Assembly: GCA_013151775.1 (NCBI GenBank)
Contig: JAADHO010000180.1
Location: 1-32,455, forward strand
Length of the DNA: 32,455 bases
Source of the DNA: Deltaproteobacteria bacterium
Lineage (GTDB): Bacteria > Myxococcota_A > Polyangia > Polyangiales > Houyiibacteriaceae
Direction: 5' to 3'
This document shows, piece by piece, positions 354 to 32,140 of the stretch; positions within the stretch are counted from its first letter, which is position 1, and each line of letters begins with the position of its first letter. Below the pieces are notes generated by a model. The model saw only the letters and a program-made list of their open reading frames with translations. It ran no database searches and had not been told where the DNA came from. The position numbers and the translations under genes were made by a program.

Positions 354-1214
<861 letters not shown>

Positions 1215-1220
1215 CCGCGC

Positions 1221-2225
1221 TCACTCTGGTGTCGGGACGGTCAGCCCCGAGGCGTCGGACTCTACCACCGCGGAGCCCGGACCTGTAGGTGCCGGATGCG
1301 GCGGCGGATCCGCGCCCCGCTCACGTCGCTCCGCTGTGGCCGGCGCGGCGCCGAGATCGAAGCCCAGCGCGAGCTGAAACGCAGGCCCGAAGCCGTAACG
1401 ATGGAGCTGATCATACATGAGCGTGAATCCGGCCTGAGCGCGAACGAAGAGCCCGCCCGGACCGTGCACGGTGGTGCCAAAAGCGTAGACGATGCCGGGC
1501 TTGCTGCTCAGCCTCGCGCCGGGCCCGGGCTCGTCGTCGAAGCCGACGTTGGTGAGCGCGTTCTGCACCGAACCCTGAACGAAGAGCTCGAGGTAGGAGT
1601 TCAGGGCGAGGTTGCCGCCGAAGGTCACGACGTAGAACCAATGTCCTTCGCGCCCCGTCTCCACTACATGGTACGGGGGTCCGAGCCCGGGACCGAAGCG
1701 GTAGTCGGTGCTGGTGAGACCGTCGTCGCGCTCCCAGACGGCATAGGGGACGCTGACGTAGCTCAGCGCGATGCCCCCGCCGACGCCCCAGGCAAATTTG
1801 CGCGTGCGACCGAAGCGCCTGCCATAGTGAAACGCCACGTTCGGGCCGCCTCCATAGAGCCGCTGCCCGCGGATGGTCGCCGAGCCCTCAGCCGTCTCGC
1901 GAGAAAACCTGGTGTGGGCCAACACACCTTGAGCGCCCAACGTCAGATGCGGCACGAGGACGACCCGGACCTGTCCGCCGAATTCCAGGGTCGGTGCCTG
2001 GAGCGCGGGGTCACCCGGCTCCGGATATTCCTCCGGATCCGTCCGCCCGAAGTTGGCCACGCCCTGGACCTCGACGCGCCCGCGCAGCTGTTGCGAGAGC
2101 GTGCTCGGCGCGGGCATGGGCACGAACGCGACCCGCTCGAAGCGCGTGCTCGGAGGCCCCGGGACGATGCAGCCCGAGAGCACGAGACCGACCGCCAGCG
2201 CACTCCCCCATCGAACACGAGCCAT
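1221..2225 (-). CDS. Outer-membrane-type lipoprotein, paralogue 1 of a tandem pair
   Basis: A 334-residue protein with a lipoprotein signal peptide: short basic N-terminus, hydrophobic core, and lipobox LSGC with Cys19. The mature part alternates short hydrophobic and Gly/aromatic stretches typical of beta-barrel or beta-rich outer-membrane proteins. It closely resembles the next protein upstream on this strand (2322-3242), sharing stretches such as AFVP, GDPAL, VSVPY.VWER, TN.GFDD and GGL..RAQ. The last 35 residues are Pro/Arg-rich and charged. The ATG at 2225 is preceded by a strong ribosome site (GAGGAGG, about 5 bases before the start). No named family is recognised and the function is unknown. 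The pair is separated by 96 bp and probably arose by tandem duplication. Confidence 0.75.
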   Translation of the reverse strand: MARVRWGSALAVGLVLSGCIVPGPPSTRFERVAFVPMPAPSTLSQQLRGRVEVQGVANFGRTDPEEYPEPGDPALQAPTLEFGGQVRVVLVPHLTLGAQGVLAHTRFSRETAEGSATIRGQRLYGGGPNVAFHYGRRFGRTRKFAWGVGGGIALSYVSVPYAVWERDDGLTSTDYRFGPGLGPPYHVVETGREGHWFYVVTFGGNLALNSYLELFVQGSVQNALTNVGFDDEPGPGARLSSKPGIVYAFGTTVHGPGGLFVRAQAGFTLMYDQLHRYGFGPAFQLALGFDLGAAPATAERRERGADPPPHPAPTGPGSAVVESDASGLTVPTPE

Positions 2226-2321
2226 CCTTCCTCCTCGTCGGGGTCAGCTGTCCAGCGGACCCGGTGCTCCAGCAGACCCGGGGGCAAGTGTAGCCCCAGC
2301 ACCGCACTCCCGGTAGGGCGA

Positions 2322-3242
2322 CTACTGCTTGGTCGGGTCGTCAGGCAGTACGCCTCGCGGCGCTCCCAGTTCGACGCCGACGGTGAACTGAAGCGTGCCC
2401 CAGCTGGAAGAGCCGACATAGAACTGCTCGAAGCCGATGGGGAATCCGTATTGGGCGCGCAGCAGCAGGCCGCCCGGGACATGCCCCGTGACGCCGAGGA
2501 AGGGCACCGCACCGACCTCTCCGGCCGAGATGGTGGAGCCGCTGCGCTGCGTGTCGTCGAAGCCGATGTTGGTCATGGAGTTCTGGATCGAGACGCCGCC
2601 GAAGAGATCCACGTAGTCGTTGAGCCCGAGGGTGCCTCCAATGGAGAAGTTGACCAGCCCTCGGATGTCGCGCCCGGACTCGATGAGGTGGTAGTTCCCG
2701 GCGTCGGTGTCGATCAGTTCATCGAGGCTGGTGCCGCCATCGTTCCTCTCCCATACGCTGTAGGGCACGCTGACGAAGCTCAGCGCCAACCCCATGCCGA
2801 AGCCCCAGCTCATATGCCCCGTGTTGATGGGTCCACCGAAGTGCAGAGAGACGTTCGGTCCGAACCCGAAGAGGCTCTTGTTCTCCATCGGCGGCGTCCC
2901 GAGGGCCGTCGCCTGAGACATGCTCGAGTGGGCGTAGACGGCCTGCGTGCCCACGGCGAAGTGGCGACCGATGGCGAAGCGCGCCTGCCCGCTGAACTGC
3001 GTACGCGCGGCGCGAAGGGCCGGATCGCCCACCTGAGGCGTGAAGTCCGTGTTCACGTCGCCCGTGGAGACCTCCCCCGTCAGCTCGACGCCACCGCGCA
3101 CGGCCTGGGTCAAGGAGTCTCCCCGGGGTGTTGGCACGAAGGCCGCACGACGAAAGCGGGTCTGGGGTGTGCAACCGGCGAGCAGGGCGAGGCCCAGCAC
3201 GAACGCCAGCGCACGCTGCGACGACAAGTAAAGTTCCTTCAT
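2322..3242 (-). CDS. Outer-membrane-type lipoprotein, paralogue 2 of a tandem pair
   Basis: The frame extends to 3395, but the ATG at 3242 is chosen because it has an excellent ribosome site (AGGAGG five bases upstream) and is followed directly by a signal peptide with lipobox LAGC (Cys24). The product is then 306 residues. It is a paralogue of the neighbouring protein at 1221-2225: the same order of motifs (AFVP, GDPAL, GFGPNV, VSVPY.VWER, TNIGFDD, GGLLLRAQYGF) runs through both. The many short amphipathic stretches with Gly and aromatic residues suggest a beta-rich outer-membrane protein attached by lipid. The substrate or partner is unknown. Codon and base composition match the neighbours. 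Confidence 0.78.
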   Translation of the reverse strand: MKELYLSSQRALAFVLGLALLAGCTPQTRFRRAAFVPTPRGDSLTQAVRGGVELTGEVSTGDVNTDFTPQVGDPALRAARTQFSGQARFAIGRHFAVGTQAVYAHSSMSQATALGTPPMENKSLFGFGPNVSLHFGGPINTGHMSWGFGMGLALSFVSVPYSVWERNDGGTSLDELIDTDAGNYHLIESGRDIRGLVNFSIGGTLGLNDYVDLFGGVSIQNSMTNIGFDDTQRSGSTISAGEVGAVPFLGVTGHVPGGLLLRAQYGFPIGFEQFYVGSSSWGTLQFTVGVELGAPRGVLPDDPTKQ

Positions 3243-3394: not shown

Positions 3395-4024
3395 TCAGCC
3401 GGACGGGAGCAGCCCGTGGAGATTGAAGTCGAGCACGGCGAGGGCCGCGCGATCGACGTCGAAGTGGTCGTCCTCGGCCATCACATACTGCTCCATCAGC
3501 TGCTTCACGGAGCCGAGCACACAGATGGCCGCCACCTCCGTGTCGATGGGACGCAAGAGGCCCACGCGGCGACCCTCCTCGAGGGCGAGGCGGATGTAGC
3601 GCAGGAGCTTCTGATAGAAGAGGCGAAGGCGCACGTCCACCTCATCGCCGAGGCCCACAGCCTCGCGAATGATGATCGTCGACAGCAGGCGATTGTCCGC
3701 CACGGTGCGCAAGACCCGGTGCACGATGGTGTCGAGCTGTACGCTCAGAGGCGGCGCGCCCTCCTTGCGATCGACTCCCACGATGCTGGCGCGCAGCTCG
3801 ACCAAGAGCCGGTCGAGCAGCTCGAGGAAGATCGCGCTCTTGCCCTCGAAATACAGATAGAAGGTGCCGCGCGCGATGCCCGCAGCCTGGATGATGTCCG
3901 CGACGGTGGTCTGGTGAAATCCCTTCTCACCGAAGGTCCGCAGAGCCGCCTCGAGGATCGCGCTGCGGCGGTTCTCGCGCCGAGCCTCCGCCCTCAGCGT
4001 GCGTCCGTCCACCTGCCCCCTCAT
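3395..4024 (-). CDS. TetR/AcrR family transcriptional regulator
   Basis: A 209-residue DNA-binding repressor-type protein. The N-terminal TetR helix-turn-helix is clear: AILEAALRTFGEKGFHQTTV (residues 22-41) followed by ADIIQAAGIARGTFYLYFEG (42-61). The remainder is the helical ligand-binding and dimerisation domain. An upstream ATG at 4195 is in frame, but the ATG at 4024 is chosen: it overlaps the TGA of the 83-residue gene upstream by one base (TGATG), a translational-coupling junction, and it gives the normal TetR length. It is the last gene of the ten-gene minus-strand lipid operon, so it is likely to regulate that operon in response to an acyl-CoA or related lipid. A candidate operator lies in front of the first gene (13185-13198). 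The ligand is unknown. Confidence 0.9.
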   Translation of the reverse strand: MRGQVDGRTLRAEARRENRRSAILEAALRTFGEKGFHQTTVADIIQAAGIARGTFYLYFEGKSAIFLELLDRLLVELRASIVGVDRKEGAPPLSVQLDTIVHRVLRTVADNRLLSTIIIREAVGLGDEVDVRLRLFYQKLLRYIRLALEEGRRVGLLRPIDTEVAAICVLGSVKQLMEQYVMAEDDHFDVDRAALAVLDFNLHGLLPSG

Positions 4025-4275
4025 CAGCTGCACTCCCGCGCGGCGCGCTCGTCCAGCCAGGCGTCGACGCGCGCGGCGATCACCGAGCGCACGTGCTCCA
4101 CCAGCTCGGGGATCTGCGCGTCGCAATACAGTCGATTCATCCACTGCATCTGATCCGGGCGCCAGACCTTCTGCATGGCCATCATGGCGGCCCACGCGAT
4201 GCCGCTGAGCAACAGCTCCTTGGCGTTCTCGACGGCGCTCAGGGGCGGCGTCTCTTGCTGAATCCGCATGTCCAT
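4024..4275 (-). CDS. 83-residue orphan protein of the lipid operon
   Basis: A short reading frame wedged between the lipid kinase and TetR genes with one-base TGATG overlaps at both ends (4275-4277 and 4024-4026). This is strong evidence that it is translated. The product appears mostly helical and soluble, with Met/Trp-rich residues in the middle (IAWAAMMAMQKVWRPDQMQW, about residues 26-45) and a charged C-terminus (AARVDAWLDERAARECS). There is no signal peptide, membrane segment or recognisable motif. It could be a small partner of the kinase or of another operon enzyme. I do not recognise a family. Confidence 0.72.
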   Translation of the reverse strand: MDMRIQQETPPLSAVENAKELLLSGIAWAAMMAMQKVWRPDQMQWMNRLYCDAQIPELVEHVRSVIAARVDAWLDERAARECS

Positions 4276-5189
4276 CAGGCCATCAACTCCAACGCGCCGG
4301 GGAGCACCTCGATGGACTCGATGCAGAGCCGCATGACCTCACCATCGACCATCACGTCCTGCTCGCGAGGGTCTACGAACTCGACGCGCTTCGATCGACA
4401 CTGCTCCACGTCCGGGTGATCGACATGGGTCCCAGTGAAGATCCGCGGAAACGTCCCCAACAGGCCACGTCTGCTAAGACCGCCTGCACGGATCACGTCG
4501 ACCTCCCCGTCGGTGGGATCAGCGTCGGGCGCCATCATCATGGTGCCGCCCGTGTAGCGGCTGTTGGAGAAAGAGAGGAAGACCGCCGGGCGCTCGTCCA
4601 CGTCGCCTCCGTCGAGGCGAATGGCGTCGACGGGGTGTTTCAATCGGATCACTTCGATGCACACCGCGGCGACATAGCCCGCGCTGCCGAGCGCCTTGAA
4701 GCGCCGATTCATCAGGCCACCGGCGGCGGCCGTGAAGCCGAGCCCGAGGATGTTGATGTAGTGCAGGACGCCATCCTTATGGCGCACCTCGATCACATCC
4801 ACGGCGCGTCGGCGCCGGCTGCTGAGGGCGTCGAAGGCCGCCTCCTCGCTGGTGATGCCGAAGTCGCGCAGGAAGGAGTTCCCCGTGCCGAGGGGCAAGA
4901 TGCCGAGCACGGGCTTGTCGTCAGCCGAAGCGCGCGGAAAGAGCCCGTTGACGACCTCATAGCTCGTCCCGTCACCACCGAAGGCGAGGAAATGACGCGC
5001 ACCTCGCTCCCACGCCTCGGCGGCCAGCTCCGTGGCGTGACCCGCGGCGTGGGTGAAGTGCACCTCGAGCTCGAGGCCGTGATCGCGCAGTCGGTCGAGG
5101 GCTACGTCCGCGCGAGAGCGACAGCGCCCTCCCCCGGCGGCTCCGTTGACGATGGCGACGAATGGCTCGCTGTTGTTGTTGTCGTCCAC
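4275..5189 (-). CDS. Diacylglycerol-kinase-type lipid kinase (DagK/YegS/sphingosine kinase-like)
   Basis: A 304-residue cytoplasmic or membrane-peripheral enzyme predicted to phosphorylate a lipid hydroxyl with ATP. The DAGK catalytic signature is present: GGDGT (residues 71-75) in the phosphate-binding loop and LGTGNSF (100-106), the family's LGTxN motif. The C-terminal beta-rich domain carries MMAPDADPTDGEVDVI and ends near a DVMVDGE stretch, as in YegS-type kinases. The start is GTG at 5189, 13 bp after the ligase stop. The stop overlaps the next start by one base. Inside an operon with acyl activation and acyl reduction genes, the substrate may be a diacylglycerol, an alkylglycerol or another long-chain alcohol. 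The exact substrate cannot be told. Confidence 0.9.
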   Translation of the reverse strand: MDDNNNSEPFVAIVNGAAGGGRCRSRADVALDRLRDHGLELEVHFTHAAGHATELAAEAWERGARHFLAFGGDGTSYEVVNGLFPRASADDKPVLGILPLGTGNSFLRDFGITSEEAAFDALSSRRRRAVDVIEVRHKDGVLHYINILGLGFTAAAGGLMNRRFKALGSAGYVAAVCIEVIRLKHPVDAIRLDGGDVDERPAVFLSFSNSRYTGGTMMMAPDADPTDGEVDVIRAGGLSRRGLLGTFPRIFTGTHVDHPDVEQCRSKRVEFVDPREQDVMVDGEVMRLCIESIEVLPGALELMA

Positions 5190-5202
5190 GCTGAACCCCC
5201 GC

Positions 5203-6888
5203 TCAAAGACGAATGATCGATTCCAGGGAGGCCTTCTCCCTCAGCTCGCCCGCCAGCACGGCGCGCTTCACCTTCATGGACGCCGTGCGCGGGAACTCGT
5301 CGTCCCAACGCAAGATGCCCGTCACACGTTTGAAGTCCGGCAGGCGCTTGTTGCGCTGCTCGAGCTGCGATTGCAGCCCACGCTCGGCGCCCTGCACCAC
5401 GGCGATCAGCCCCTCGTCCGTGAGCGGAACGCCTGGCCACACGTAGCCCGTGGCGAAGACCGCGAGCTCATCGCAGGGCAAGCCGTCGAAGGCGCCCTCG
5501 ATGTCCTCGGGGTAGATGTTCTTCCCGCCGGGCGTGACGATCATGTTCTTGCTGCGGCCCACGAGGTGCAGATGTCCCGATGGGTCGAGCCAGCCGAGGT
5601 CGCCGGTCTTCAGCCATCCGTCGTGGAGCACCTCGGCCGTCTGCTCGGGATCATCGAGGTAGCCATCGAAGACGGTGGGGCTCTTGGCCCAGACCTCGCC
5701 GATGCCGCTCTCGGGATCGGGCGAGCGGATCTCGAGCTCCACGCCGTCGAGCGGCCGCCCCACGGAGTCTGCGCGGAAGGGCGCCAGATCATTCACGGTG
5801 AGCACGGTGCAGGCTTCCGTCAGGCCGTAGCCGATCACCACGGGGATGCCCAGGTCGTAGAAGAAGCGCGCACGCGCCGGATCGACGAAGGCGCCGCCAC
5901 AAAAGAGCATCTTCAACGTACCGCCGAAGGCGTCGTGCACGGGCTTGAGCAGGCTGCGGCTCAGCGCGTGGCGCGGCTTGTCCAAGGTGGCGCGCACGTT
6001 GATGCCGACGAGGGCGTCGAAGAGACGCTTGGTCAGCGGCCCCGCCTCATCCTGTTTTTCGCGGATGCGACGCTCGAAGGCCTCGAGCAAGAGCGGCACC
6101 ACGGCCATGTGGGTGATGCCGGCCTTGCGCAGCGTGTAGTTCACCATCTCGGGCCGCAGAGCGCGCTGATGCACGATGGTCGCGCCGCTCGCGAAGGGTC
6201 CGACGAAGCCGACCATGAAGTCGATGGCGTGGTTGGTCGGGAGGATCGAGAAGTAGCGATCGCCCACGTCCATGGGGAAGATGTCCGAGAGCATGCGGAA
6301 CTGCTCGAGGTAGTTCGCGTGGGTGAGCACGCAACCCTTGGGATCGCCGCCCGTGCCCGAGGAGTAGACCAGGGTCGCCTGATCGGCGCGCTCGCGAGCG
6401 ACGTGCTCACCGGCCACGACATCCCGCGGCAGGTCTTCGAAGCGCGTGGCGGCCCCGAGCTCCGCGCCTTCGGGAGCGTCCGTGACCCACACATGCTGCG
6501 CGTCGGCCTCGCCCCCGAGCTTTCGCCACTCACCATATTCGGTGATCAAGAGCTGCGGCTTGGCGTGGGCCAAGAGCGCGCGCTGCTCGTCGCCCTTCAG
6601 CTTGTAGTCGATGGGCACGAGCACGGCGCCGCGCAGGAAGGTGGCCGTGGCGCTCAGCAGCCAGGTCGGCTGATTGCTCATCAGCATGGCGACGCGGTCG
6701 CCCGCGCCGACACCGAGCTCCTGCATGGCGCGCGTGAGCGCGTCGACCTCACGCTTGGCCTCGAGGTAGCTGAGCCTGCCGGACTCGCGCTTGCGGTTGT
6801 ACTCGACGAAGGCCGTCTCGCTCTTGTAGGTCAGCAGCGAGTCGTAGAGCAGCTCACCCAAGCTCGGATACGCGTCGGGGTGGATCAT
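5203..6888 (-). CDS. AMP-dependent acyl ligase (long-chain fatty acyl-CoA/acyl-ACP synthetase)
   Basis: A 561-residue member of the adenylate-forming ANL superfamily. The core motifs are visible in order: the phosphate loop YSSGTGGDPKG (175-185), YGLTEA (354-359), TGDLGWLD (428-435), GRSKNMIVTPGGKNIYPEDIE in the hinge region (444-464), and the C-terminal catalytic lysine in TASMKVKR (Lys539). The hinge form resembles fatty acyl-CoA synthetases rather than amino-acid adenylation domains. The ATG at 6888 overlaps the stop of the acyl carrier protein gene in an ATGA junction. That tight coupling suggests the ligase may load its acyl-adenylate onto the carrier protein instead of, or as well as, CoA. 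That is inference. Confidence 0.92.
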   Translation of the reverse strand: MIHPDAYPSLGELLYDSLLTYKSETAFVEYNRKRESGRLSYLEAKREVDALTRAMQELGVGAGDRVAMLMSNQPTWLLSATATFLRGAVLVPIDYKLKGDEQRALLAHAKPQLLITEYGEWRKLGGEADAQHVWVTDAPEGAELGAATRFEDLPRDVVAGEHVARERADQATLVYSSGTGGDPKGCVLTHANYLEQFRMLSDIFPMDVGDRYFSILPTNHAIDFMVGFVGPFASGATIVHQRALRPEMVNYTLRKAGITHMAVVPLLLEAFERRIREKQDEAGPLTKRLFDALVGINVRATLDKPRHALSRSLLKPVHDAFGGTLKMLFCGGAFVDPARARFFYDLGIPVVIGYGLTEACTVLTVNDLAPFRADSVGRPLDGVELEIRSPDPESGIGEVWAKSPTVFDGYLDDPEQTAEVLHDGWLKTGDLGWLDPSGHLHLVGRSKNMIVTPGGKNIYPEDIEGAFDGLPCDELAVFATGYVWPGVPLTDEGLIAVVQGAERGLQSQLEQRNKRLPDFKRVTGILRWDDEFPRTASMKVKRAVLAGELREKASLESIIRL

Positions 6889-7127
6889 AGGCGCCTCTCG
6901 ATCACCTCGGCGAGACCACCGAAGGTGTTGACGCCCTGGATCTCGTAGTCGGGGATCTCGACCTCGAACTCTTCTTCGAGATCCGTCAGCAGCTCCATGG
7001 CCTGGTAGCTGTCGATGCCGAGTTTTTCGAACAGGTCATCCTCAGGGGTGAGACCCGAGGTGTCCTTCTCGAAGCGGCGGGCGGCGAGCTCGAGCAGGCG
7101 GGGGACGAGGTGTTTGGCGTCAGTCAT
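6885..7127 (-). CDS. Acyl carrier protein
   Basis: An 80-residue acidic helical carrier. The phosphopantetheine attachment site is the Ser of GIDS (Ser40) followed by YQAMELL, the usual DSxxxMEL-type helix II start. The rest matches the four-helix carrier fold in length and charge (DLFEKLGID before the serine, EEEFEVEIPDYE after it). This is unlikely to be the housekeeping carrier of fatty acid synthesis, because it sits between an enoyl-CoA hydratase gene and an acyl ligase gene and overlaps the latter by four bases. It probably holds the acyl chain for the dedicated ligase and reductases of this operon. A 24-bp gap separates it from the hydratase gene. Confidence 0.93.
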   Translation of the reverse strand: MTDAKHLVPRLLELAARRFEKDTSGLTPEDDLFEKLGIDSYQAMELLTDLEEEFEVEIPDYEIQGVNTFGGLAEVIERRL

Positions 7128-7151
7128 GATCTCTGGGGCTGGTCGGTGAAA

Positions 7152-8060
7152 TCAGGGCAGATAGGGGCGGACAGAGTCGTCCTCTACGAATTTGCGCAGC
7201 GCCGCCGAGACGACGTCGGAGCCGAGCATCTCGATGAAGAGGTCGCGCTCACGTGCGAGCTCCTCCCGCGGCAGAGGTTTGGTGAAACGCTTGGCGGCGG
7301 CGGTGGTGGCAGCGTCGAAGCGGGCGGCCTGCTCGGCGACCTTCTTGGCCACCTCGAGCCCGCGACCTCGGGCCACGACCTGGGAGACGAGGCCCACATC
7401 CTGCGCCTTCTTGGCGTTGATGGAGCGGCCCGTGAAGAGGATGTCGCGGATCACGGCATTGCCCACGTCGCGCTTCAAGCGCGGGATGCCGCCGAAGCCG
7501 GGGACGAGACCGAGGCGCAGCTCGGGGAAGGCGAAGCGCGTGCTCTTCTCGGCCACGAGCACATCGCAGCAGAGGGCGAGCTCGAAGCCGCCACCGAAGC
7601 AGAAGCCGTGCAGCGCGCCGATGGTCGTCACGGGCGCCATGTCGATGGCGTCGAAGGCGGCGTGGATGCGGTCGATGAAGTCGCGCGCCTCGGCGGCCAC
7701 GCGAAGCCGGCTCGCGCCCTCCCCCGCGCGCGACATCAAGCCGCCGTGCAGCTCCGCCAAGTCGGCGCCCGCGCAGAAGCCACGGGAGACCGAGCTGTGG
7801 AAGATGGCCGCGCGCACGCGATCGCCCGGACGGCTTAGCAAGCGCGCCACGATCTCGAGCTCGGCGAGCGCCGTGGTGCCTATCTCGTTGCACGGCTCGC
7901 GGTGCAGCGTGACGAGCAGCGTCTCACCCTCGAGGGTGGTCGACAGGGCCTCACCGCGAAACTCGAAGCTCGCGGGAGCCGTGCGCGGGATCGCCTCCTC
8001 GACCAGCGTCCCGACCTTGCGTGCGAGCAGGCGCGCCTGCCATGGCAGGGGCACTCTCAT
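7152..8060 (-). CDS. Enoyl-CoA hydratase/isomerase (crotonase family)
   Basis: A 302-residue crotonase-fold protein. The start is placed at ATG 8060, which overlaps the upstream TGA as ATGA; the longer in-frame start at 8123 would lie inside the preceding gene. The oxyanion-hole segments are RGFCAGADLAEL (93-104) and GALHGFCFGGGFELALCCD (148-166). Both acid/base glutamates of true hydratases appear to be kept, Glu160 in GGFEL and Glu180 in FAFPEL, so hydratase activity is plausible. The N-terminal 35 residues before the crotonase fold are Arg/Leu-rich and not recognised. In this operon it could modify the acyl chain of a carrier- or CoA-bound intermediate. Confidence 0.9.
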   Translation of the reverse strand: MRVPLPWQARLLARKVGTLVEEAIPRTAPASFEFRGEALSTTLEGETLLVTLHREPCNEIGTTALAELEIVARLLSRPGDRVRAAIFHSSVSRGFCAGADLAELHGGLMSRAGEGASRLRVAAEARDFIDRIHAAFDAIDMAPVTTIGALHGFCFGGGFELALCCDVLVAEKSTRFAFPELRLGLVPGFGGIPRLKRDVGNAVIRDILFTGRSINAKKAQDVGLVSQVVARGRGLEVAKKVAEQAARFDAATTAAAKRFTKPLPREELARERDLFIEMLGSDVVSAALRKFVEDDSVRPYLP

Positions 8061-9643
8061 GCGTGCCCCACCCGCTCCACGATAGCCTGCACCGCGGGCG
8101 GTAGGGTCGGCAGATGATCCCAAGGATCGCCATCGCCTCCGAGGCCTTCGGCGAAGGGAAAGTCGGCATGCTGCTCGCGCACGCGATCGACCAAGACCAT
8201 GCCCATCTCACCCATCCGGCGCAGGTTCTGCACGTAGCAGCGATCGATGCCATCACGCACCTCGGCCGCACGCGGGATCAGATCGCGCAGCGTCTCGTAG
8301 AGGTGCTGTTCGAGCTCTTCGTCTTCGACCTCGAGGGCGAGCTCGGGCTGACCGCGATCGATCATCAGGTTGCGAATGCGCTCGTCCATGGTGATGCCCG
8401 CGGAGGCCACGCCGCCGGCCATGCTCGTGACGATGGCGTGGTAGCGCGACGAGACCATGTAGCTCGCCTGACGCATGACGCTGACCATCTCGTACATGTC
8501 GTGCTCGTCCGAGACGATGATCGGGTGGCCGCCACCGAGCTCCAAGCTCAGCGCCTCGCAGGCGCGACGGTCGAGCTGCTCGGAGCCGATCATCACGGGG
8601 AAGATGTCGAACTCCGCCTGAACTCTGCGCACGGCGCCGGCGATGGCGGCGATGTACGCGGCCTGCCTGCGATCCACGTCGGCGCCCGAGGCGTGGAAGT
8701 AGACCGAGCCGTAGTGGGCGTCGTCCTCCTCGTCGTCGAGGGCGTTGACCAGGGCGCGCGGCACGTTGGGCTTCACCGGCCACCAGAAGGGGTTGATGGG
8801 ACACAAGGCGAGCACTGGCGTCTCGCCATCCCAGCCGGCGTCCTGCAGGATCTTTCGGCCCACCTCGGGCGGCGCCGGGTCGAAGGTCCACGCCGTGTCC
8901 GTGCCCGAGCGCGACGCCACGCCGAGCTCCGCCAGCACCTCGCGCGAAGCCTCGTTGCGCGTGATGATCAGCGCGTCCTGACAGTAGCGCCGCACCATGC
9001 TCGCGAGGGACGCGTCCATGTTCCCGGCCTCGCCTCCATAACCCACGGCGAGCTTCTGCTCCGCCGCGGCGAGCCCGAGGGCGCCGACCATCATGGTCGA
9101 CAGAGCGTTGGCGAACTTGCTCTTGAACATGGAGCCTTCGCAGGCGATCACGCCATGCTGCTGATGCACTGTGTCGAACAGGAAGCGCGGGAAGATCTTG
9201 GGCAAGAGCAGCTGCCGCACGGTGCGGAAGTAGCCGCGCGTCAGCTCGAGGTCGAGGCTGAGGATCGACATCTCCACGTGCTCGTCACCGAAGAGGTGAC
9301 GGAACTGCCGGATCATCTCCTCGACGCGCACGTCCGCGCCCGTGTTGCGCGTACCGCTGTAACCAGCGAGCAGCAGCTTCAGCGGCACGCCGGGCTGCCA
9401 GCGCTGCCCGGCGTCGAGGGCGTAGCGACTCGCCGCGAGCTCGATCAGGCCCGCCATGGAGTGGGAGAGCAGGCGGTCGGCGTCGAGGTGGCCCTTGGCG
9501 CGATCGTAGACCTGCTTGGCCACGTCCTTGAAGACGCGCAAGAGTCCATCGTCCTCGGGCGCGGGCGGCGCCTTCACCTCGGGCTGAATGTCCCTGCTGC
9601 GCGGACGGTAGACACGCACGCGGCGACTCGTCGTGCCGGGCAT
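8057..9643 (-). CDS. Polysaccharide pyruvyl transferase family protein
   Basis: A 528-residue protein. The start is ATG 9643, which overlaps the upstream gene's TGA by one base (TGATG); the frame continues to 9985 but that part is a shadow of the upstream gene. After about 85 residues of unassigned N-terminus comes the family signature LLLAGYSGTRNTGADVR (90-106). Later features are an EGSMFKSKF stretch, a conserved-looking VSDEHDMYEM and, near the C-terminus, ASYMVSSRYHAIVTSMAGG, the typical end of the pyruvyl transferase domain. The family adds pyruvate ketals to sugars, but members also occur with unknown roles. Its place in a fatty acyl reductase operon is unusual and suggests a sugar-bearing lipid product or a different acceptor. 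Confidence 0.85.
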   Translation of the reverse strand: MPGTTSRRVRVYRPRSRDIQPEVKAPPAPEDDGLLRVFKDVAKQVYDRAKGHLDADRLLSHSMAGLIELAASRYALDAGQRWQPGVPLKLLLAGYSGTRNTGADVRVEEMIRQFRHLFGDEHVEMSILSLDLELTRGYFRTVRQLLLPKIFPRFLFDTVHQQHGVIACEGSMFKSKFANALSTMMVGALGLAAAEQKLAVGYGGEAGNMDASLASMVRRYCQDALIITRNEASREVLAELGVASRSGTDTAWTFDPAPPEVGRKILQDAGWDGETPVLALCPINPFWWPVKPNVPRALVNALDDEEDDAHYGSVYFHASGADVDRRQAAYIAAIAGAVRRVQAEFDIFPVMIGSEQLDRRACEALSLELGGGHPIIVSDEHDMYEMVSVMRQASYMVSSRYHAIVTSMAGGVASAGITMDERIRNLMIDRGQPELALEVEDEELEQHLYETLRDLIPRAAEVRDGIDRCYVQNLRRMGEMGMVLVDRVREQHADFPFAEGLGGDGDPWDHLPTLPPAVQAIVERVGHA

Positions 9644-10779
9644 CAGGCCGCCTCCTCGACGCGCGCGGGCGGCAGCGGACGATAGGGGTAGCGATAGCCG
9701 ACGCCCTTGGCGTAGCGGTAGAGAGCGCCCGCGTACTCGGTGAAGGGCGTGGGCGCCATGCCCACCTCTTTCACGGCGCGGCTGTTGTCGAAGACCGTGT
9801 CGTAGGTGATGTAGGGCAGGAAGACCTTGAAGAGCGAGCCCACGAGGGTGAGCGTGTTGCGCCGCTTCATGCTCGCGAGCTGATTCATGGCGCTGCCAAA
9901 GGGGCCCTCGAGGGCGGGCACGAAGCGCGGCGCGCGGCGGCTGTTGCCGGAGGTCAGGGCCTCGGTGATCTGCCGGGCCGTGCACGCGCTCTCACCCGCG
10001 CTGAGGTGATAGATCTCGTGCTCGGTGACGTCCTTGGCGTGGATCGTGGCGATTGCGCGTCCGACCCAATCGGCGTTGACGATGTCGAGTCGCACGTCCG
10101 CGCGGAAGGGCAGGATGGGCATATCCGCGAGCACGCAGAACGCCCGCACCATGTCGAACTGAGAGGTCTCGGCCGTGCGCGAATCGCCCATGACGATGGA
10201 CGGGCGGAGGAAGGTCTTGGGCACCTCGGGCAAGAGGCGGCGCACCATGTGCTCGGCGAACTTCTTGGTGCGGGCGTAGGGATCGTAGTCGGAGCGTGCC
10301 CAGTCGATCGCCTCGTCCTCCTGCACGACCTCGCGATCGCGCTGACCGGCGACCGCCACGGTGGAGACATGGCTGAAGCGACGCAGGCCGGTCAGGTCCT
10401 TGGCTGCGCGCGCAAACTCGATCACGGAGAGCGTGCCTCGTAGGTTGTGGTTGAGGCAGGCCTTCTCGCTCTTGCGATTCAAGGAGGCGGCGATGTGCAG
10501 CACGGAGTCGCACTCGCGCGTGAGCCGCTCGTAAGAGCTCGCCTCGATGCCGAGGTTGGTCGCCGTGAGGTCTCCTGGCACGAGCTCGATGCGCGGCAAG
10601 AAGGATCGAAACGTGTCGGCGTCCATGTGCTGCTGCAGACCGCGCCAGAGCTTCTCGACGCCTTCCGCGTCGCTCTTGGCGCGCGTGAGCACGGCCACCC
10701 GCTCATCGCTCTCGCGCATCATCACGTCGAGGACGTAGGAACCGAGGTAACCGGTCGCGCCGGTGATGAAGGTGGTCAT
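9643..10779 (-). CDS. NAD(P)-dependent epimerase/thioester-reductase-like SDR protein
   Basis: A 378-residue extended short-chain dehydrogenase. The N-terminal nucleotide-binding motif TGATGYLG (6-13) is followed by the typical second-strand segment and HIAASLN. The active site has Ser139 in HVSTVAVAG, Tyr168 and Lys172 in YARTK. The pattern best fits the NAD_binding_4 group, which holds thioester reductases and fatty acyl reductases, though a sugar or lipid epimerase is also possible. The ATG at 10779 overlaps the stop of the preceding acyl reductase gene as ATGA. Two related reductases side by side suggest consecutive reductions, for example acyl thioester to aldehyde to alcohol. Confidence 0.85.
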   Translation of the reverse strand: MTTFITGATGYLGSYVLDVMMRESDERVAVLTRAKSDAEGVEKLWRGLQQHMDADTFRSFLPRIELVPGDLTATNLGIEASSYERLTRECDSVLHIAASLNRKSEKACLNHNLRGTLSVIEFARAAKDLTGLRRFSHVSTVAVAGQRDREVVQEDEAIDWARSDYDPYARTKKFAEHMVRRLLPEVPKTFLRPSIVMGDSRTAETSQFDMVRAFCVLADMPILPFRADVRLDIVNADWVGRAIATIHAKDVTEHEIYHLSAGESACTARQITEALTSGNSRRAPRFVPALEGPFGSAMNQLASMKRRNTLTLVGSLFKVFLPYITYDTVFDNSRAVKEVGMAPTPFTEYAGALYRYAKGVGYRYPYRPLPPARVEEAA

Positions 10780-12455
10780 GCGCTCGCGCTCCTCTGGGAT
10801 CTACGACCCTCGGCGGCCTCGGAATGCGTCGCGAGTCCACGGCGCTTCTCATCGACGTTCTCCCCGAGCTTTTCCTCCGCGCGCCTGCGCCCCGCGCGAC
10901 GACTCCCGTGGGCCAGGGGCAGGGGTTCGTCCTCCGGCACGCTGTCTCCCTTGAGCAGCGGGATGCACCAGGTCTCGAGCCCGGGGACTTGCACGTCGAG
11001 CCAATAGCGACGCCAGTCGATATCGTCCACGTCGAAGCCAAAGAGCTGCCGCTCGGCGTCGTCGAGGCGACGCGTCGCGGCGGGCAAAGCTTCGGTCTCG
11101 TAGATCCAGTCGTGGTCGTGAATGAAGGGCCGGTAGGTGCGCAGCATGTCGTCCACGCGCCCGAGCTGACGGTCGAGGTTGCGACACTTCATGGAGGCCG
11201 ACTTCATGCGTCGATTGAGCGAGTCGGCGAGCTCACCGCGCATACGCTCCGGCAGAGCGTTCGCCGCGTCGCGACCCTTGAGCAGCGCCCGCAGAGATCG
11301 CGCCACTCGCCGCACCGTGTGCACGTCGAGGAAGCGCTCTTGATCGGCCTCCACGGGGCGCCCCTCGAGGTGACGCAACACCAAGGACTCGAAGGCCGTG
11401 GCCTGCTCGCGCCCGTGGATGCGACGCCACGCCAAGGCCGTGAGCTCCACCGCACGACCGAAGCTCAGCGGGTTCCGCTGACTCGACGCCACGTGGTAAA
11501 TTTCGCGGCCTTCACCGCGCATGGACTCGGCGGCAGCCAAGGTCATGCTGCGCGCGACCGTGTCCACCGGCACCACGTCGAAGCGATTGGTCGGCCGGGA
11601 CGGGAAGCGACAGAAGGTCGTGCCGAGCAGCCAGACCAGTGGGCCCGAGGTGTTGATGCCCTCGTTCCAGCCGAGCATGGGGAAGCTGCGCGCGCACTCG
11701 ACGATGGCGGGCCGCACGATGGAGACGTCGAGCTCGGGAATGGTGAGCAAGAGATGCTCGGCCAGGCCCTTGGTGTAGGTGTAGATGTTGGGCCAGCCCA
11801 GACGCTGTCCGCGTGCCATGGCGTGGTCCGTGCGCGCGCGGACGCTGTCCAGCGGCAGCATCTCCGCGCTCAGCTCGTCGAGCTCCTGACGCGGATCGAA
11901 CTTCACCCCCAAGGGTGAGACGCCATGCTCGAGAAATTCGGGCACCTCGCGCGACGGTCGACCGGCTACGAAGCAGGTGGAGATGTGGATCATGCGCTTG
12001 CCGGCGCTGCGCTTGGCGAGCTCCGCCACGTTCAGCGCGCCGCGCAAGTTGGCCTCGATGGCCAAGGGCGGATCGGGCTCGAAGTCGGTCAGGCCCGCGA
12101 CGTGCACCACGAGGTCCACGTCAGACATCAGGCGACTCGCCTCGGCCTCCGAGAGCCCGCAGAGATCGGCGCTCAGACACGCCTCCACCACGTCGACCTT
12201 CTCACTCAGGACCTCGCGAAAGTCGGGCCCATGGAGCGCGCGGAAGGGACGCAGCGCGGGCGAGCGCTCGGCGATCTCCTCGAAGCGCGCTTTGGCGTCC
12301 ACACCCTTGCGGCCACGCGCCAGCAGAGTCATGCGGCGGATCTCGGGCAGCTCGGTCAGGAGCATGGAGAGCCAGACCTTGCCCAAGAAGCCCGTCACAC
12401 CCGTGATCAGGATGTGCTTCCCTCGAAAGGTCTCGGCGATACGCAATGGCTCCAT
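10776..12455 (-). CDS. Fatty acyl-CoA/ACP reductase (FAR-like, male-sterility type)
   Basis: A 559-residue protein starting at ATG 12455. An in-frame TTG lies two codons upstream at 12461, but the ATG sits 8 bases after a GGAG ribosome site. The Rossmann motif TGVTGFLG (18-25) and the catalytic pair Tyr225/Lys229 in YTYTKG identify the extended SDR reductases that turn fatty acyl thioesters into alcohols or aldehydes. The first part also contains HVAGLTDF and HISTCFVAG, typical of this family. The C-terminal third (about 340-540) is a FAR-type helical region with YRPFIHDHDWIYETE and DVDDIDWRRYW. It ends in a highly charged tail. Together with the linked ligase and carrier protein it defines this operon as making a reduced acyl chain. 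Confidence 0.88.
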   Translation of the reverse strand: MEPLRIAETFRGKHILITGVTGFLGKVWLSMLLTELPEIRRMTLLARGRKGVDAKARFEEIAERSPALRPFRALHGPDFREVLSEKVDVVEACLSADLCGLSEAEASRLMSDVDLVVHVAGLTDFEPDPPLAIEANLRGALNVAELAKRSAGKRMIHISTCFVAGRPSREVPEFLEHGVSPLGVKFDPRQELDELSAEMLPLDSVRARTDHAMARGQRLGWPNIYTYTKGLAEHLLLTIPELDVSIVRPAIVECARSFPMLGWNEGINTSGPLVWLLGTTFCRFPSRPTNRFDVVPVDTVARSMTLAAAESMRGEGREIYHVASSQRNPLSFGRAVELTALAWRRIHGREQATAFESLVLRHLEGRPVEADQERFLDVHTVRRVARSLRALLKGRDAANALPERMRGELADSLNRRMKSASMKCRNLDRQLGRVDDMLRTYRPFIHDHDWIYETEALPAATRRLDDAERQLFGFDVDDIDWRRYWLDVQVPGLETWCIPLLKGDSVPEDEPLPLAHGSRRAGRRRAEEKLGENVDEKRRGLATHSEAAEGRRSQRSASA

Positions 12456-12457
12456 GC

Positions 12458-13117
12458 TCAACGCTCCACCACGGGCCAGTCGTTGTCGCGGGCGATGCGA
12501 CGTAAGCGGAAATCCGGCGCGACGGCGCAGGGCTTGCCGATGGCGCTGAGCAAGAGGCTGTCACCGCCGCGGGCGCCATAGGCCCAGGAGAGATCGAGGT
12601 CGATGTCGTTCGCCTTGGCGAAGCCGCGCGCCCACTGACCCGCGAGGTTTCCGCCGACGACCGGCTCCTCGAGGCGGCCCGTGGCCTTGCTGCGAGTGAT
12701 CTCGAGCCGATTGCAGATCAGGTCGTCCGCCTCGAGGTCGTCGGCGAAGCGCCCGGCGATCTGCTCGATGTTGTCGCTGACGAGCACGATACGGCGTCCG
12801 TCCTTGCGCGCCCGCCGCAGCAGGCGCTTGCCCACGTCGAGCAGCTCGTCCTTCACGAAGTCGTCGTAGTACTCCTCGGCGAGCACCTCGACCCGATCCT
12901 CGGTCATGCCGCGCAGGCCCATCCAGGTGATGCGCGTGGCGGTGGCGCCGCTCGCCAAGGAGCCGGCGAAGCTGAGGGGCGCAGCCAGGGCCACGTTGCC
13001 GAGGCGCAGAGCGCGCTCGCCCAGACCACGGGCGTTGCCCGCGAGCCAGGCGGCGGCGGCCAGGGCGGGACGATCGAGGAGCGTCCCTTCGACGCGAAAG
13101 AAGGCAGCTTGGTGCAC
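12458..13117 (-). CDS. HAD-superfamily subfamily IB protein with degenerate active site
   Basis: A 219-residue protein with the overall layout of SerB-like HAD-IB phosphatases, but with altered catalytic motifs. Motif I, normally DxDGT, reads RVEGT (Arg8, Glu10), so the nucleophilic Asp is missing. Motif II keeps Ser114 in VLVSDN. The usual motif III lysine is not evident in GGNLAGQWARGF. Motif IV (YGARGGDSLLLSAIG) keeps one of two aspartates (Asp186). Phosphatase activity is therefore doubtful; it may act as a regulatory or scaffold partner of the reductase encoded next. It is the first gene of the operon, with GTG start at 13117 and an AGGAGT ribosome site. The stop lies 2 bases before the reductase ATG. 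Confidence 0.82.
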   Translation of the reverse strand: MHQAAFFRVEGTLLDRPALAAAAWLAGNARGLGERALRLGNVALAAPLSFAGSLASGATATRITWMGLRGMTEDRVEVLAEEYYDDFVKDELLDVGKRLLRRARKDGRRIVLVSDNIEQIAGRFADDLEADDLICNRLEITRSKATGRLEEPVVGGNLAGQWARGFAKANDIDLDLSWAYGARGGDSLLLSAIGKPCAVAPDFRLRRIARDNDWPVVER

Positions 13118-13184: not shown

Positions 13185-13198
13185 ACTGACGTGTCAGT
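13185..13198. promoter_or_regulatory. Candidate TetR operator upstream of the lipid operon
   Basis: ACTGAC and GTCAGT flank a 2-base centre, a perfect palindrome of the size bound by TetR-family dimers. It lies 68 bp upstream of the GTG of the first operon gene and inside the only promoter-sized gap (13118-13242). On the minus strand it follows a possible -35 (TTGAAA, 13206-13211 on the plus strand as TTTCAA), so binding would overlap the promoter. The operator role and the link to the TetR at 3395-4024 are inference. Confidence 0.5.
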
Positions 13199-20577: not shown

Positions 20578-22314
20578 TCAGAGGAAGTGGCAGTCCGAGC
20601 AGGGCAGGTCGGGTGGATCCGTGTCCCACTCCGCCGAGGCGGGGTGTGCCGCGTCTCCGTGGCAGTAGAGGTTCGCACAGACTCCCGTCACGGGGTCGTA
20701 GGTCGCCACCGGGTTCTTGCCGTCGAAGACGACCTCCGCCCTTCCGTCTCCGTCGATGTGACCGGGGCTCAGCGCCGACGTCGGCTTCACGTGGCAGCGG
20801 GTGCAATCCCAACCACCGTGCCAGGTGACGTGCTCCATGTGAGCGCCGACGGCCAGAGTCAGCCGCCCCGTGCGACCGTCGACGGCAGCGGCCGGAGCGC
20901 CCGTCATGTTGTCCGTGCCGCCGTGGCAGAAGGTGCAGTTGGTCTGCCAGCCGGGATGGCAGCTCTCGCACGAGACGCCCACGAGACCGCCCGTGAGGTC
21001 GGCGCCGTGACAGGCTTGGCAGGTCGAGAGGCCCGTGCGGTCGGCCGTCAGGCCGTGGGCGCTCGGGTCACGCCAGCCGTCGGGGTGATTCGAGATCACC
21101 TCCACGACGCCATCGATGTGACGGGCCGGATCGATGATGGCGCCGCTCTCATCAACGCTGGGATGGCAGATCGAGCACTGCGTCAGGCTCGGATGTGACC
21201 CGCCGGGCGGCAGGCTGTGGCATGTGCCGCAAGCGGCCTGAGTGCCGTCGACCGTGGTCCACTCGGGGGTGGTATTGCTGCCACCGGGGAGCAAGGTCTC
21301 GCCGTGGCAGTAGACGCCGCTGCAGGTCGTGCCGTCCCAGACGGGCGTGGCGCCGTCGGTCGTCGCCAGCGCGCCCCAGGTCAGCTCTGCAGGACGAGGC
21401 GTGTCGATGTGGCCCGTGGCGAAGACGCCAGCGCCCGCTAGGTCGGGGACGAGATGACAATCCTCGCACAGCACCTGCCGATGCCAGTCCGAGGCAGCCA
21501 GGTGACTTCGATGGGCGCCGACGCTGCGCACCTCGGTGCTCGTCCGGCCGCTGGTGTCGCGTGGAGGGGCAGGTATTCCGTCCGAGCCGTGGCAGCTGGT
21601 GCAGGTCAGGTCGCTGATCTCCAGGTCGAGCTGACCGTCGATATGTCGCTCGGGAGCGACGATGCTCCAGGAGGCGTCGATGGTCGGATGACAGACCTGG
21701 CAGCCGTCGTACTTGGGATGGGTGCCGCCAGGGGGCAAGCTGTGGCAGGTGCCGCAGAAGCCCTGCGTGCCGTCGACGACGGTCCACTTGGGCGTCGTGT
21801 TCGTTCCTCCTGGGTCCAGGCGCGAGCCATGACAGTAGACATCGGAGCAGCTCGTACCGTCGAAGCTCGGCTCGGCCCCGCGTTGCAGAGGAACGGTTCC
21901 CCACGTCAACTCGGCCGGCAGCGGCGTGTCGATGTGCCCCGGATCATCTACCTCCGTGGGCACGAGGTGGCAGTCCTCGCACTGCACCTGCCGATGCCAA
22001 TCGGAGCTGCTCAGGTGGCTGCGGTGAGCGCCCACGCCGCGCTCGCGGGTCGCCGTGTGCCCCGCGAGATCGAGCGGTGGCGCCGGGCTGGTCTCGTCGC
22101 CGTGGCAGTCGTCGCAGGCAGGTGGCGGGAGCGTTCCGACGGGTACGCCGGGCGGCCGCAGAGTCGGGCCGGCGTCGATGGCCGAGTCCAGGCTACCGTC
22201 CAGCGAGGCATCGAGTCCGGCGTCGAAGCCAGCATCCTCGCCGCCCGTGGACCCTCCGCACCCGACAGCGCCGCAGATCGCTAGTACTCCCAGCGTGACA
22301 ATCGAAATCTTCAC
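20578..22314 (-). CDS. Two-module multiheme c-type cytochrome lipoprotein (16 heme motifs)
   Basis: A 578-residue protein read from GTG 22314, which lies six bases after a GGGAGG ribosome site; the GTG at 22320 abuts that site. A signal peptide ends in AVGC (Cys19) and is followed by an Asp/Ala/Ser-rich linker, the layout of a surface lipoprotein. There are 13 CxxCH and 3 Cx4CH motifs. Two modules of about 173 residues carry five motifs each, and a C-terminal section carries six (CQACH, CESCH, CTFCH, CTRCH, CANLYCH, CSDCH). The Cx4CH...CxxCH pairing is typical of Geobacter-type repeat cytochromes. It lacks the last about 100 residues found in its two larger paralogues. It lies about 35 bp after the six-module gene, so the two are probably cotranscribed. 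Confidence 0.93.
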   Translation of the reverse strand: MKISIVTLGVLAICGAVGCGGSTGGEDAGFDAGLDASLDGSLDSAIDAGPTLRPPGVPVGTLPPPACDDCHGDETSPAPPLDLAGHTATRERGVGAHRSHLSSSDWHRQVQCEDCHLVPTEVDDPGHIDTPLPAELTWGTVPLQRGAEPSFDGTSCSDVYCHGSRLDPGGTNTTPKWTVVDGTQGFCGTCHSLPPGGTHPKYDGCQVCHPTIDASWSIVAPERHIDGQLDLEISDLTCTSCHGSDGIPAPPRDTSGRTSTEVRSVGAHRSHLAASDWHRQVLCEDCHLVPDLAGAGVFATGHIDTPRPAELTWGALATTDGATPVWDGTTCSGVYCHGETLLPGGSNTTPEWTTVDGTQAACGTCHSLPPGGSHPSLTQCSICHPSVDESGAIIDPARHIDGVVEVISNHPDGWRDPSAHGLTADRTGLSTCQACHGADLTGGLVGVSCESCHPGWQTNCTFCHGGTDNMTGAPAAAVDGRTGRLTLAVGAHMEHVTWHGGWDCTRCHVKPTSALSPGHIDGDGRAEVVFDGKNPVATYDPVTGVCANLYCHGDAAHPASAEWDTDPPDLPCSDCHFL

Positions 22315-22348
22315 GTGCACCCTCCCTCACTCAGACGAGTATCCTGTG

Positions 22349-26473: not shown

Positions 26474-26497
26474 ACCCTTTAATCTCCTGTCTTCGGG

Positions 26498-26518
26498 TCG
26501 TCGCGCGGCGCGCCACGA
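26498..26518. promoter_or_regulatory. Near-perfect 21-bp palindrome, copy A
   Basis: Arms TCGT-C-GCGCG and CGCGC-C-ACGA around a central G pair at all positions but one. It starts 25 bp upstream of the cytochrome ATG, between the possible -10 and the start codon. An identical copy stands before the nine-module gene (32402-32422). It may be an operator or an RNA hairpin in the leader. Confidence 0.5.
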
Positions 26519-26679
26519 TCCCGCGTGTCCTCACCCATTAGATAGGATCGATCGGGCGGGCCTGCATTGCGCCGGACGCAACACGAAACGCGCATCCGTT
26601 GCGCCACGAGAGCAACTTCCTCAAAACCCGTGCATATTTTGCGCGTGGACGAGGTCGAGGACTCGCAGGACGAAATTCC

Positions 26680-26697
26680 GGCGACTCAGGAGCCGCC
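26680..26697 (-). terminator. Weak hairpin after the nine-module cytochrome gene
   Basis: On the minus strand GGCGGCT and AGTCGCC pair (one G-U) around a 4-base loop, 23 bases after the stop at 26721. A short AATTT follows two bases later. A modest terminator candidate. Confidence 0.4.
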
Positions 26698-26720
26698 TGG
26701 AGGTGCTTCCCGTGAGGAAC

Positions 26721-31100: not shown

Positions 31101-32140
31101 GCGCCGCTCAGGTCCAGGTCGACGACGCCGTCGATGTGACGCGACGGATCGGTGATCGTCATGCCCGGGCCCATCGTCGGGTGACAGCCCGCGCAGTCGG
31201 TCGAGTTCGGGTGACTCCCGCCCGGAGGCGTGCTGTGACACGTGCCGCACGCCGCCTGCGTGCCGTCCACCGTCGTCCACTCCGGCGTTGTGTTGCTGCC
31301 GCCAGGCAAGAGCGTCTCGCCGTGGCAGTACACCCCGCTGCAGGTCGTCCCGCTCCAGTCAGGAGTCGCCCCATCCGTCGTCGACAGCGGACCCCAGGTC
31401 ACCTCCGCCGGACGTGGCGTGTCGATATGACCCACCGCCCACACACCGCCGAGCACTGGATCGGGGACGATGTGACACGCCTCGCACTGCACCTCCTTGT
31501 GCCAATCCGAAGGCCCGAGGTGGCTGCGGTGCGCGCCCACCGTCCGCTCGGAGGTGTCCGTGCGATCCGACGTGTCACGCGGAGGAGCCGGCGTGCCGTC
31601 CGCCTCTGAGCCGTGGCAGCTCGTGCACGTCAGGCCCGAGATGTCGAGGTCCAACAGGCCGTCGACATGCCGGTCTGGATCCGTGATCGTACCCGACCCG
31701 TCGATCGTCGGGTGACAGACGGAGCAGCGATCGTACTTCGGGTGCGGACCCTCGGGCGGCACACCGTGGCAGCTGCCGCAATACGCTTGTGAGCCGTCCA
31801 CAATCGTCCAGGTCGGCGTCATCAGCGTGCCGCCTGGGTCCAGGCGCGTGCCATGACAGTACACATCCGAGCAGCTCGTTCCGTCGAAGCTCGGAGACGC
31901 CCCGCGCGACGTCGGCACGGCGCCGAAGGTCAGCTCCGCGGGCCACGGCGTGTCGATATGCCCCGGGTCGTCGATGCCCGTGGGCACGAGGTGGCAGTCC
32001 GTGCACACGATGTCGCGGTGCCACGACGAGTCGTAGAGGTGGTTGCGGTGCGCCCCCACGCCTCGCTCCGAAGGGTCGATGCGACCCTCGAGATCCATCG
32101 GGGGCGCCGAGCTCGTGCGATCGCCGTGGCACTCGCTGCA
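27520..32140 (-). repeat. Nine tandem ~519-bp cytochrome modules
   Basis: The Cx4CH-encoding segment recurs near 27707, 28213, 28735, 29255, 29770, 30292, 30809, 31328 and 31858, mostly 515-525 bp apart. The interval 27707-28213 is shorter because of the 7-base and 3-base deletions. Inner modules are very similar (for example the repeated TDCHGSAADGTPAPP and CGTCHG.PPGG.HP segments), which favours unequal crossing-over. Confidence 0.9.

Follow-up and report, generated by a model that had tools for sequence, protein, structure and literature searches.

Here we describe a run of ten minus-strand genes, from 13117 to 3395, in a 32,455-nucleotide stretch of DNA from Deltaproteobacteria bacterium (contig JAADHO010000180.1 of assembly GCA_013151775.1; the whole of this stretch is the window below, and its genome, 6.05 Mb in 460 contigs, is the window genome). 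This operon is real and conserved, and what is new about it is that it is a split, elaborated variant of an already known type of locus, the elb ether-lipid locus of M. xanthus. On balance we favor reading it as an unfused, elaborated counterpart of elb that functions as one TetR-controlled unit and whose product is likely an alkyl (ether) phospholipid, or another phospholipid derived from a fatty alcohol. The operon probably makes a special membrane lipid because of its relatedness to elb, its recurring gene order, the pseudo-phosphatase that it encodes, and the presence of its own predicted repressor and operator. The single dedicated lipid pathway proposed in an initial annotation of this DNA is thus well supported by the recurring order, by the homology to elb, and by what appears to be a cluster-specific regulator-operator pair.

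In the direction of transcription, the operon begins with a HAD-IB-fold pseudo-phosphatase homologous to ElbB (12458..13117, 219 residues, PF12710), in which Arg8 and Glu10 stand in place of Asp and Asp. It is followed by a fatty acyl reductase (FAR) with a Sterile-like C-terminal region and homology to the ElbD N-terminus (10776..12455, PF07993 and Sterile, the latter match falling slightly short of its cut-off); a second SDR protein, which is thioester-reductase/epimerase-like (9643..10779, PF07993/Epimerase); a polysaccharide-pyruvyl-transferase-like protein (PPT; 8057..9643, PF04230, GT-B fold); an enoyl-CoA hydratase/crotonase (ECH; 7152..8060, ECH_1); an acyl carrier protein (ACP; 6885..7127, PP-binding); an AMP-forming acyl ligase (LIG1; 5203..6888, AMP-binding); a DagK/YegS-type lipid kinase (4275..5189, DAGK_cat/YegS_C); ORF9, an 83-residue in-frame remnant of a PlsC-type acyltransferase, recognized by comparison with relatives (4024..4275); and, as the last gene, a TetR-family regulator of 209 residues (3395..4024, TetR_N). 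The tight packing of ten genes described in the initial annotation was confirmed, with six of nine junctions being overlaps of 1–4 bases (4 bases at FAR-SDR, PPT-ECH and ACP-ligase; 1 base at SDR-PPT, kinase-ORF9 and ORF9-TetR) and the other three being gaps of 2 (HAD-FAR), 13 (ligase-kinase) and 24 bases (ECH-ACP). Its family names also stand, apart from ORF9 and the activity of the HAD protein, since Pfam and NCBIfam back every gene label except that of ORF9, which has no match. The nine intact genes have ratios of nonsynonymous to synonymous substitution rates (dN/dS) of 0.07–0.20, and the operon is flanked by a 125-base gap upstream, which contains the predicted operator, and a 152-base gap downstream. 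An Rfam search gave no match reaching the gathering threshold, and a scan for promoters and terminators gave counts not above those of shuffled sequences.

A one-genome-per-species scan found 340 relatives, of which the best 80 were examined, and genes were called in 27 regions, with profile annotation of these and of 80 named loci. We defined a complete locus as one with FAR, PPT and the kinase and with at least 1.9 kb beyond the kinase; 41 of 91 PPT loci, drawn from genomes and named contigs and with duplicates removed, qualified. These 41 non-redundant loci contain the HAD gene in 40 cases, FAR in 41, SDR in 40, PPT in 41, ECH in 41, ACP in 37, the ligase in 41, the kinase in 41, the acyltransferase in 36 and TetR in 26, and 27 of them contain a second ligase. 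The common order is HAD-FAR-SDR-PPT-[second ligase]-ECH-ACP-ligase-kinase-acyltransferase-TetR, and it recurs in Polyangia, other Myxococcota, Acidobacteriota and Latescibacterota; carriers among the best 80 of the 340 relatives include Nannocystis, Paraliomyxa, bins labeled Sandaracinus, many Acidobacteriota and one Latescibacterota chromosome. Recurrence of the ten-gene block far exceeds chance, and the possibility that these genes never recur together, which the initial annotation had named as its refutation, is itself refuted by this gene-neighborhood search. The PPT-like protein was present in 26 of 57 relatives and in 38 of 192 genomes sampled from the class. The closest relative of the window genome among the genomes compared is a Myxococcales groundwater bin (L058), and its relatives put the window genome within the Polyangia. 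We found no account of this gene set in the open-license papers searched.

Several individual copies of the operon carry features of their own. Two loci titled as a Klebsiella pneumoniae metagenome-assembled genome (L083 and L127) carry the operon and group with Myxococcota/proteobacterial bins, and these titles look wrong. In four acidobacterial copies (L105, L113, L119 and L135) a gene of ~335–345 residues lies between ECH and ACP; L105, the only one of the four to be scanned, encodes a beta-ketoacyl-ACP synthase III (KAS III) at this position, and the inserted gene may have a role in providing the acyl chain or in lengthening it. Locus L118, from an environmental Myxococcales bin, carries, inserted between PPT and the second ligase, two intact genes for thiol-activated cytolysin family proteins.

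The elb locus, as set out in passages of PMC9131029, comprises elbA (SDR), elbB (HAD-like), elbC (function unassigned), elbD (FAR, acyl-CoA synthetase, ACP and acyltransferase) and elbE (SDR), with activity reported for the synthetase and ACP portions of ElbD. Our FAR profile, run against 152 genomes of the phylum, returned the split FARs first and then the N-termini of reading frames of ~1400–2250 residues. In the 22 fused loci fetched from this search, the long frames match FAR, ligase and acyltransferase; many of these loci have a HAD gene upstream and an SDR gene downstream, and one of the fused proteins contains NAD_binding_4, AMP-binding, PP-binding and Acyltransferase domains in that order. 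In a FAR tree using every second split row, the split FARs form one clade (support 97/86) that adjoins the 22 FARs of ElbD type, and two further FARs fall outside. When a fused ElbD-type protein was compared with the window genome, its best ligase match was LIG1 of the operon (236 bits; the next ligase reached 178), and the only FAR matches of its length were in the operon (171 + 96 bits). In addition, the split-HAD profile finds the HAD protein adjoining fused ElbD at 143–216 bits. The pointer in the initial annotation to M. xanthus elb is therefore well supported, with FAR, ligase and HAD being homologues of elb parts.

The ten-gene operon, judged from these comparisons, is nevertheless a relative of elb and not an elb locus, because FAR and HAD are homologous to elb parts and LIG1 is the best ligase match to ElbD in the window genome, but the LarA-like gene is absent and the SDRs are only weakly similar. 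Compared with the M. xanthus elb operon (elbA–E; BGC0000871), which makes vinyl ether and alkyl ether phosphatidylethanolamines (VEPE/AEPE), the window operon shares the FAR, acyl ligase, ACP, PlsC-type acyltransferase (in the window a remnant), HAD and SDRs, but has separate genes for the ElbD domains, a catalytically dead HAD and no LarA-like gene, and the split operon adds PPT, ECH, the lipid kinase, TetR and often a second ligase. A single multidomain ElbD protein is absent from the window and from the split loci, where its domains are separate genes, and the window genome contains no open reading frame of ElbD size with a strong FAR match. Homologues of the operon's kinase, ECH and PPT were not seen in the 22 fused loci, except for one 58-bit ECH match. 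The LarA-like (Lar_N) gene lies between HAD and ElbD in 15 of 22 fused loci (including L202 and L225) and in none of the split loci. The Lar_N match at the elbC position offers a lead on the function of elbC. We also considered elbC as a homologue of PPT and rejected this, since a profile comparison gave a probability of 0.5% and the proteins at the elbC position are Lar_N.

The predicted model of the HAD protein (pLDDT 88.9) keeps the HAD fold, with a TM-score of 0.83 to 3fvv, but the DxD nucleophile/acid-base motif of HAD-IB phosphatases is absent from the split-operon HAD: the nucleophile Asp is replaced by Arg (Arg8) and the second Asp by Glu (Glu10), and this RxEG motif is found in all 56 split-operon copies counted (rows below 80 bits and duplicate loci left out), so that a reading of the HAD protein as a working phosphatase was not supported. 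The HAD adjoining fused ElbD has DxDG in 14 of 14 cases, and the motif IV Asp (position 182 of the window copy) is present in 14 of 14 ElbB-type HADs and in 0 of 56 split-operon HADs. Comparison with the same-genus relative gives a dN/dS of 0.12, which indicates purifying selection, so the loss of the motif is not decay. HAD and FAR are fused into one protein in 18 loci, all of them from Acidobacteriota or Latescibacterota according to the record titles, and Arg occupies the nucleophile position in 16 of 17 aligned fusions, the exception (L136) looking misaligned. Being conserved, inactive and fused to FAR, the HAD protein most likely acts as a partner of FAR. Operons with an active HAD have no kinase, whereas those with a dead HAD have one; this gives the impression that a phosphorylating step has taken the place of a dephosphorylating one.

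The split and fused forms also tend to occur in different genomes. Using FAR score and frame length to make the calls, we found a split FAR in 21 of the 152 genomes (G033, G242 and G266 among them), the fused form in 42, both in 1 and neither in 90, with G269, where the gene lies at a contig end, left unclassified. Co-occurrence would be expected in 5.8 genomes (Fisher p 0.007, a value uncorrected for ancestry and thus just indicative), and the fused form was not found in twelve additional split-operon genomes. Sections of a preprint (PMC12224551) list Nannocystis, Polyangium and Sorangium among the genera without an elb cluster and score Sandaracinus amylolyticus, Enhygromyxa salina and Pseudenhygromyxa as negative for it. 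The split operon is present in four Nannocystis loci (L114, L115, L125 and L129) and in two labeled Sandaracinus (L060 and L088).

The predicted TetR operator of the window, an inverted repeat read on the minus strand as ACTGAC-AC-GTCAGT (13185..13198), lies ~80 bases ahead of the HAD start. The pattern ACTGAC-NN-GTCAGT stands ahead of HAD in 16 of 16 loci with called genes, amid unlike flanks, and it is often lengthened to TAGACTGAC-NN-GTCAGTCTA and sometimes doubled. The pattern was found in 28 of 57 relatives (21 of 26 with PPT and 7 of 31 without), a reversed control pattern was found in 2 of 57, and HAD adjoins the site in 19 genomes. Of the complete operons with TetR, 24 of 25 have the operator upstream, the lone locus without an exact copy being L048, as against 0 of 15 without TetR. 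Ancestry contributes to this association between operator and TetR, since the copies without TetR come from acidobacteria, from latescibacteria or from members of the Polyangia, e.g., Nannocystis. The TetR gene of L217 is divergently oriented, with the operator at its start. At L220:2557, a second TetR palindrome was observed inside the operon; it lies in the interval from PPT to ECH, which in this locus contains other, inserted genes. The exact sequence ACTGACNNGTCAGT occurs as a single copy (13185-13198) in the window genome, which rules out a wider TetR regulon there. We predict that TetR is a one-site, cluster-specific repressor, which probably keeps the operon silent until released by an acyl ligand. 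A literature search with the operator letters listed papers that are unrelated by title.

The remaining enzymes of the operon keep the residues that we take to be functional in their families: the YxxxK motif of SDR in 75 of 75 rows, the catalytic residues of FAR in 72 of 72, both Glu residues of ECH in 70 of 70, the phosphopantetheine Ser of ACP in 61 of 61, GGDGT of the kinase in 53 of 53, and the catalytic Lys of the ligase in 54 of the 55 rows having a residue there. The RxH motif of PPT, which presumably has a role in handling phosphoenolpyruvate, is kept in 86 of 86. The PPT-like protein scores 38.2 bits against PF04230 (gathering score 25.3) and contains the SxRxH motif, but does not reach the equivalog cut-offs for CsaB (59.6 vs 213 bits) or WcaK (16–19 vs 399–727). 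Its predicted model (pLDDT 89.4, pTM 0.86) has a GT-B fold, with the highest VIA Z values obtained for UDP-GlcNAc 2-epimerases (21.8) and PimA (20.8); no pyruvyl transferase is among the fold matches listed, which does not count against family membership, and a sequence search of the PDB with the PPT profile returned nothing up to E 1. The protein may transfer either pyruvate or a glycosyl group to a lipid head group.

ORF9, which the initial annotation called an orphan, is instead what remains of a PlsC-type acyltransferase that is intact in relatives. We dismiss it as a novel protein, since the relatives carry the full enzyme, i.e., PF01553 acyltransferases of 261–294 residues (one 197-residue call aside). 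ORF9 retains just residues 5–61 and 230–261 of the same-genus protein, and two separate in-frame deletions account for its length, given which an assembly error is a less likely cause of the shortening. The window genome contains no close second copy of the acyltransferase, the next-best match being 29% identical. Because the gene is missing from 5 of the 41 complete loci, in 4 of which ACP is missing too, the acyltransferase has been lost repeatedly. To judge from its preserved frame, the ORF9 remnant may serve translational coupling to TetR.

Taken together, the gene families suggest a pathway in which the ligase would activate a fatty acid and load it onto ACP, ECH would set the beta-position, and FAR and the second SDR would reduce the acyl thioester to the alcohol/alkyl level, with the pseudo-phosphatase, in view of its fusion and conservation, assisting FAR as a binding or regulatory partner. 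A PlsC-type enzyme would then acylate the glycerol backbone, and a housekeeping acyltransferase may be needed for this step in the window genome because the operon's own copy is a remnant. The kinase would restore the phosphate that feeds phospholipid synthesis, and, more speculatively, PPT would modify the head group. The ether bond is not explained by any gene of the operon, and the same is true of ElbD. From the enzyme families present, an alkyl/ether phospholipid or another fatty-alcohol-derived phospholipid appears the likeliest product.

A number of points weigh against an elb counterpart that makes such a phospholipid. Neither an alkyl-DHAP synthase nor any enzyme known to form ethers is encoded in the operon, its own acyltransferase is broken in the window genome, and ACP and the acyltransferase are both missing from some relatives. 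Many genomes are without the operon; in one genus belonging to the same family, PPT is missing from most genomes, all members tested were negative, and no strong FAR was seen in those examined for it. The fused loci were assigned to elb by architecture and neighbors, without a named M. xanthus record. The SDR model of the operon matches the elb-locus SDRs weakly (20–34 bits), leaving orthology of this pair unsupported, and the ligase tree, built from 42 of 144 rows with no outside ligases, does not by itself show sisterhood. According to passages of PMC11868695, homologues of ElbD do not guarantee ether lipids, as in Pontiella.

A possible, though less probable, explanation is that parts of elb were recruited to make a non-ether fatty-alcohol or enal lipid, e.g., a wax-type ester, an alkyl phosphate, or a pyruvylated or glycosylated glycolipid. 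A different product is suggested by the added genes and by the presence of a kinase in place of an active phosphatase: PPT, ECH and the kinase are each present in all 41 complete loci and virtually unseen in the 22 fused loci, the LarA-like gene shows the opposite distribution (15 of 22 fused loci and 0 split loci), the best-aligned chains for the GT-B fold of PPT include the lipid glycosyltransferase PimA, and some acidobacterial copies contain a KAS III gene. However, FAR, ligase, ACP and acyltransferase form the core of the operon just as they make up ElbD, and the kinase suits a phospholipid product. We think it improbable that the genes form a fatty-acid salvage or remodeling operon, with no special product, under an acyl-responsive TetR. 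The ligase, ECH and SDR are known in general fatty-acid metabolism, and TetR resembles fatty-acid regulators (66.5 bits to a FadR-type model, short of its cut-off), but two reductases, a lipid kinase, PPT and a pseudo-HAD do not fit such a role, and neither does an operator that occurs once in the window genome, with no regulon, or an order conserved across phyla. That the genes are simply co-inherited neighbors without a common pathway is very improbable indeed; unrelated insertions (peptidases, a glycosyltransferase and others) are tolerated in some loci, but ordered recurrence in 41 complete loci from several phyla, the HAD-FAR fusions, the one operator and the purifying selection on all nine intact genes argue against it.

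Returning to the unfused elb counterpart, several known systems resemble it in part. The elbD-type clusters of sponge Acidobacteriota/Poribacteria (PMC9426513) overlap with it in phylum and domain types, but have multidomain ElbD proteins, and that text does not mention a pyruvyl transferase. The MXAN_1675/1676 type (FAR-GNPAT and AGPS), as presented in parts of PMC9131029, also uses a FAR for ether lipids, but FARs presumed to be of this type, a label based on size and domains, fall outside the group of split and ElbD FARs, and the window operon has no AGPS. PlsAR/Ger ester-to-ether reductases, described in passages of PMC10087280 and PMC11868695, are another bacterial route to alkyl/alkenyl ethers, and the operon contains no PlsA/PlsR-type gene. 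With the polysaccharide pyruvyl transferases CsaB and WcaK, PPT shares PF04230, SxRxH and the GT-B fold; unlike them, it lies within a lipid operon without polysaccharide genes and is far under the equivalog cut-offs.

Genome surveys of bacterial ether lipids, as outlined in sections of PMC11868695, target ElbD, Ger/PlsA or AGPS, and searches for ElbD clusters would miss a relative of elb that has been split and re-equipped. This applies to the Nannocystis that the preprint, in the sections cited above (PMC12224551), scored as elb-negative, as genomes so named, and Sandaracinus-labeled ones, carry the split operon. The genes for alkyl ethers in acidobacteria without ElbD are, according to parts of PMC10087280, an open question for palaeoclimate lipids, and the operon, which many Acidobacteriota carry, is a concrete candidate. 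More tentatively, and with the balance leaning against it, the operon could be a second, phylum-spanning elb counterpart, in which the active phosphatase turned into a pseudo-enzyme partner of FAR and a kinase and PPT were added, and which makes a so far undescribed class of lipid, e.g., an alkyl phospholipid whose head group is modified by pyruvate or sugar; if so, Nannocystis, Sandaracinus and many ElbD-less Acidobacteriota would have their own route to such lipids. The HAD protein shows cleanly, and in conserved form, how an enzyme can become a pseudo-enzyme and then fuse with its partner, and the predicted one-site repressor switch could allow the pathway to be induced in culture.

Beyond the operon, the genes at 354-3242, downstream of it, were ruled out as members, as they are not retained beside the operon in relatives. 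Adjoining it are two tandem paralogous lipoprotein/barrel-like proteins without a Pfam match (1221-3242, minus strand), and beyond these lies a 3-hydroxyacyl-CoA dehydrogenase (354-1214). Elsewhere in the window, four neighboring multihaem c-type cytochromes on the minus strand (20578-32290), with 13, 30, 10 and 30 CxxCH motifs, suggest extracellular electron transfer.

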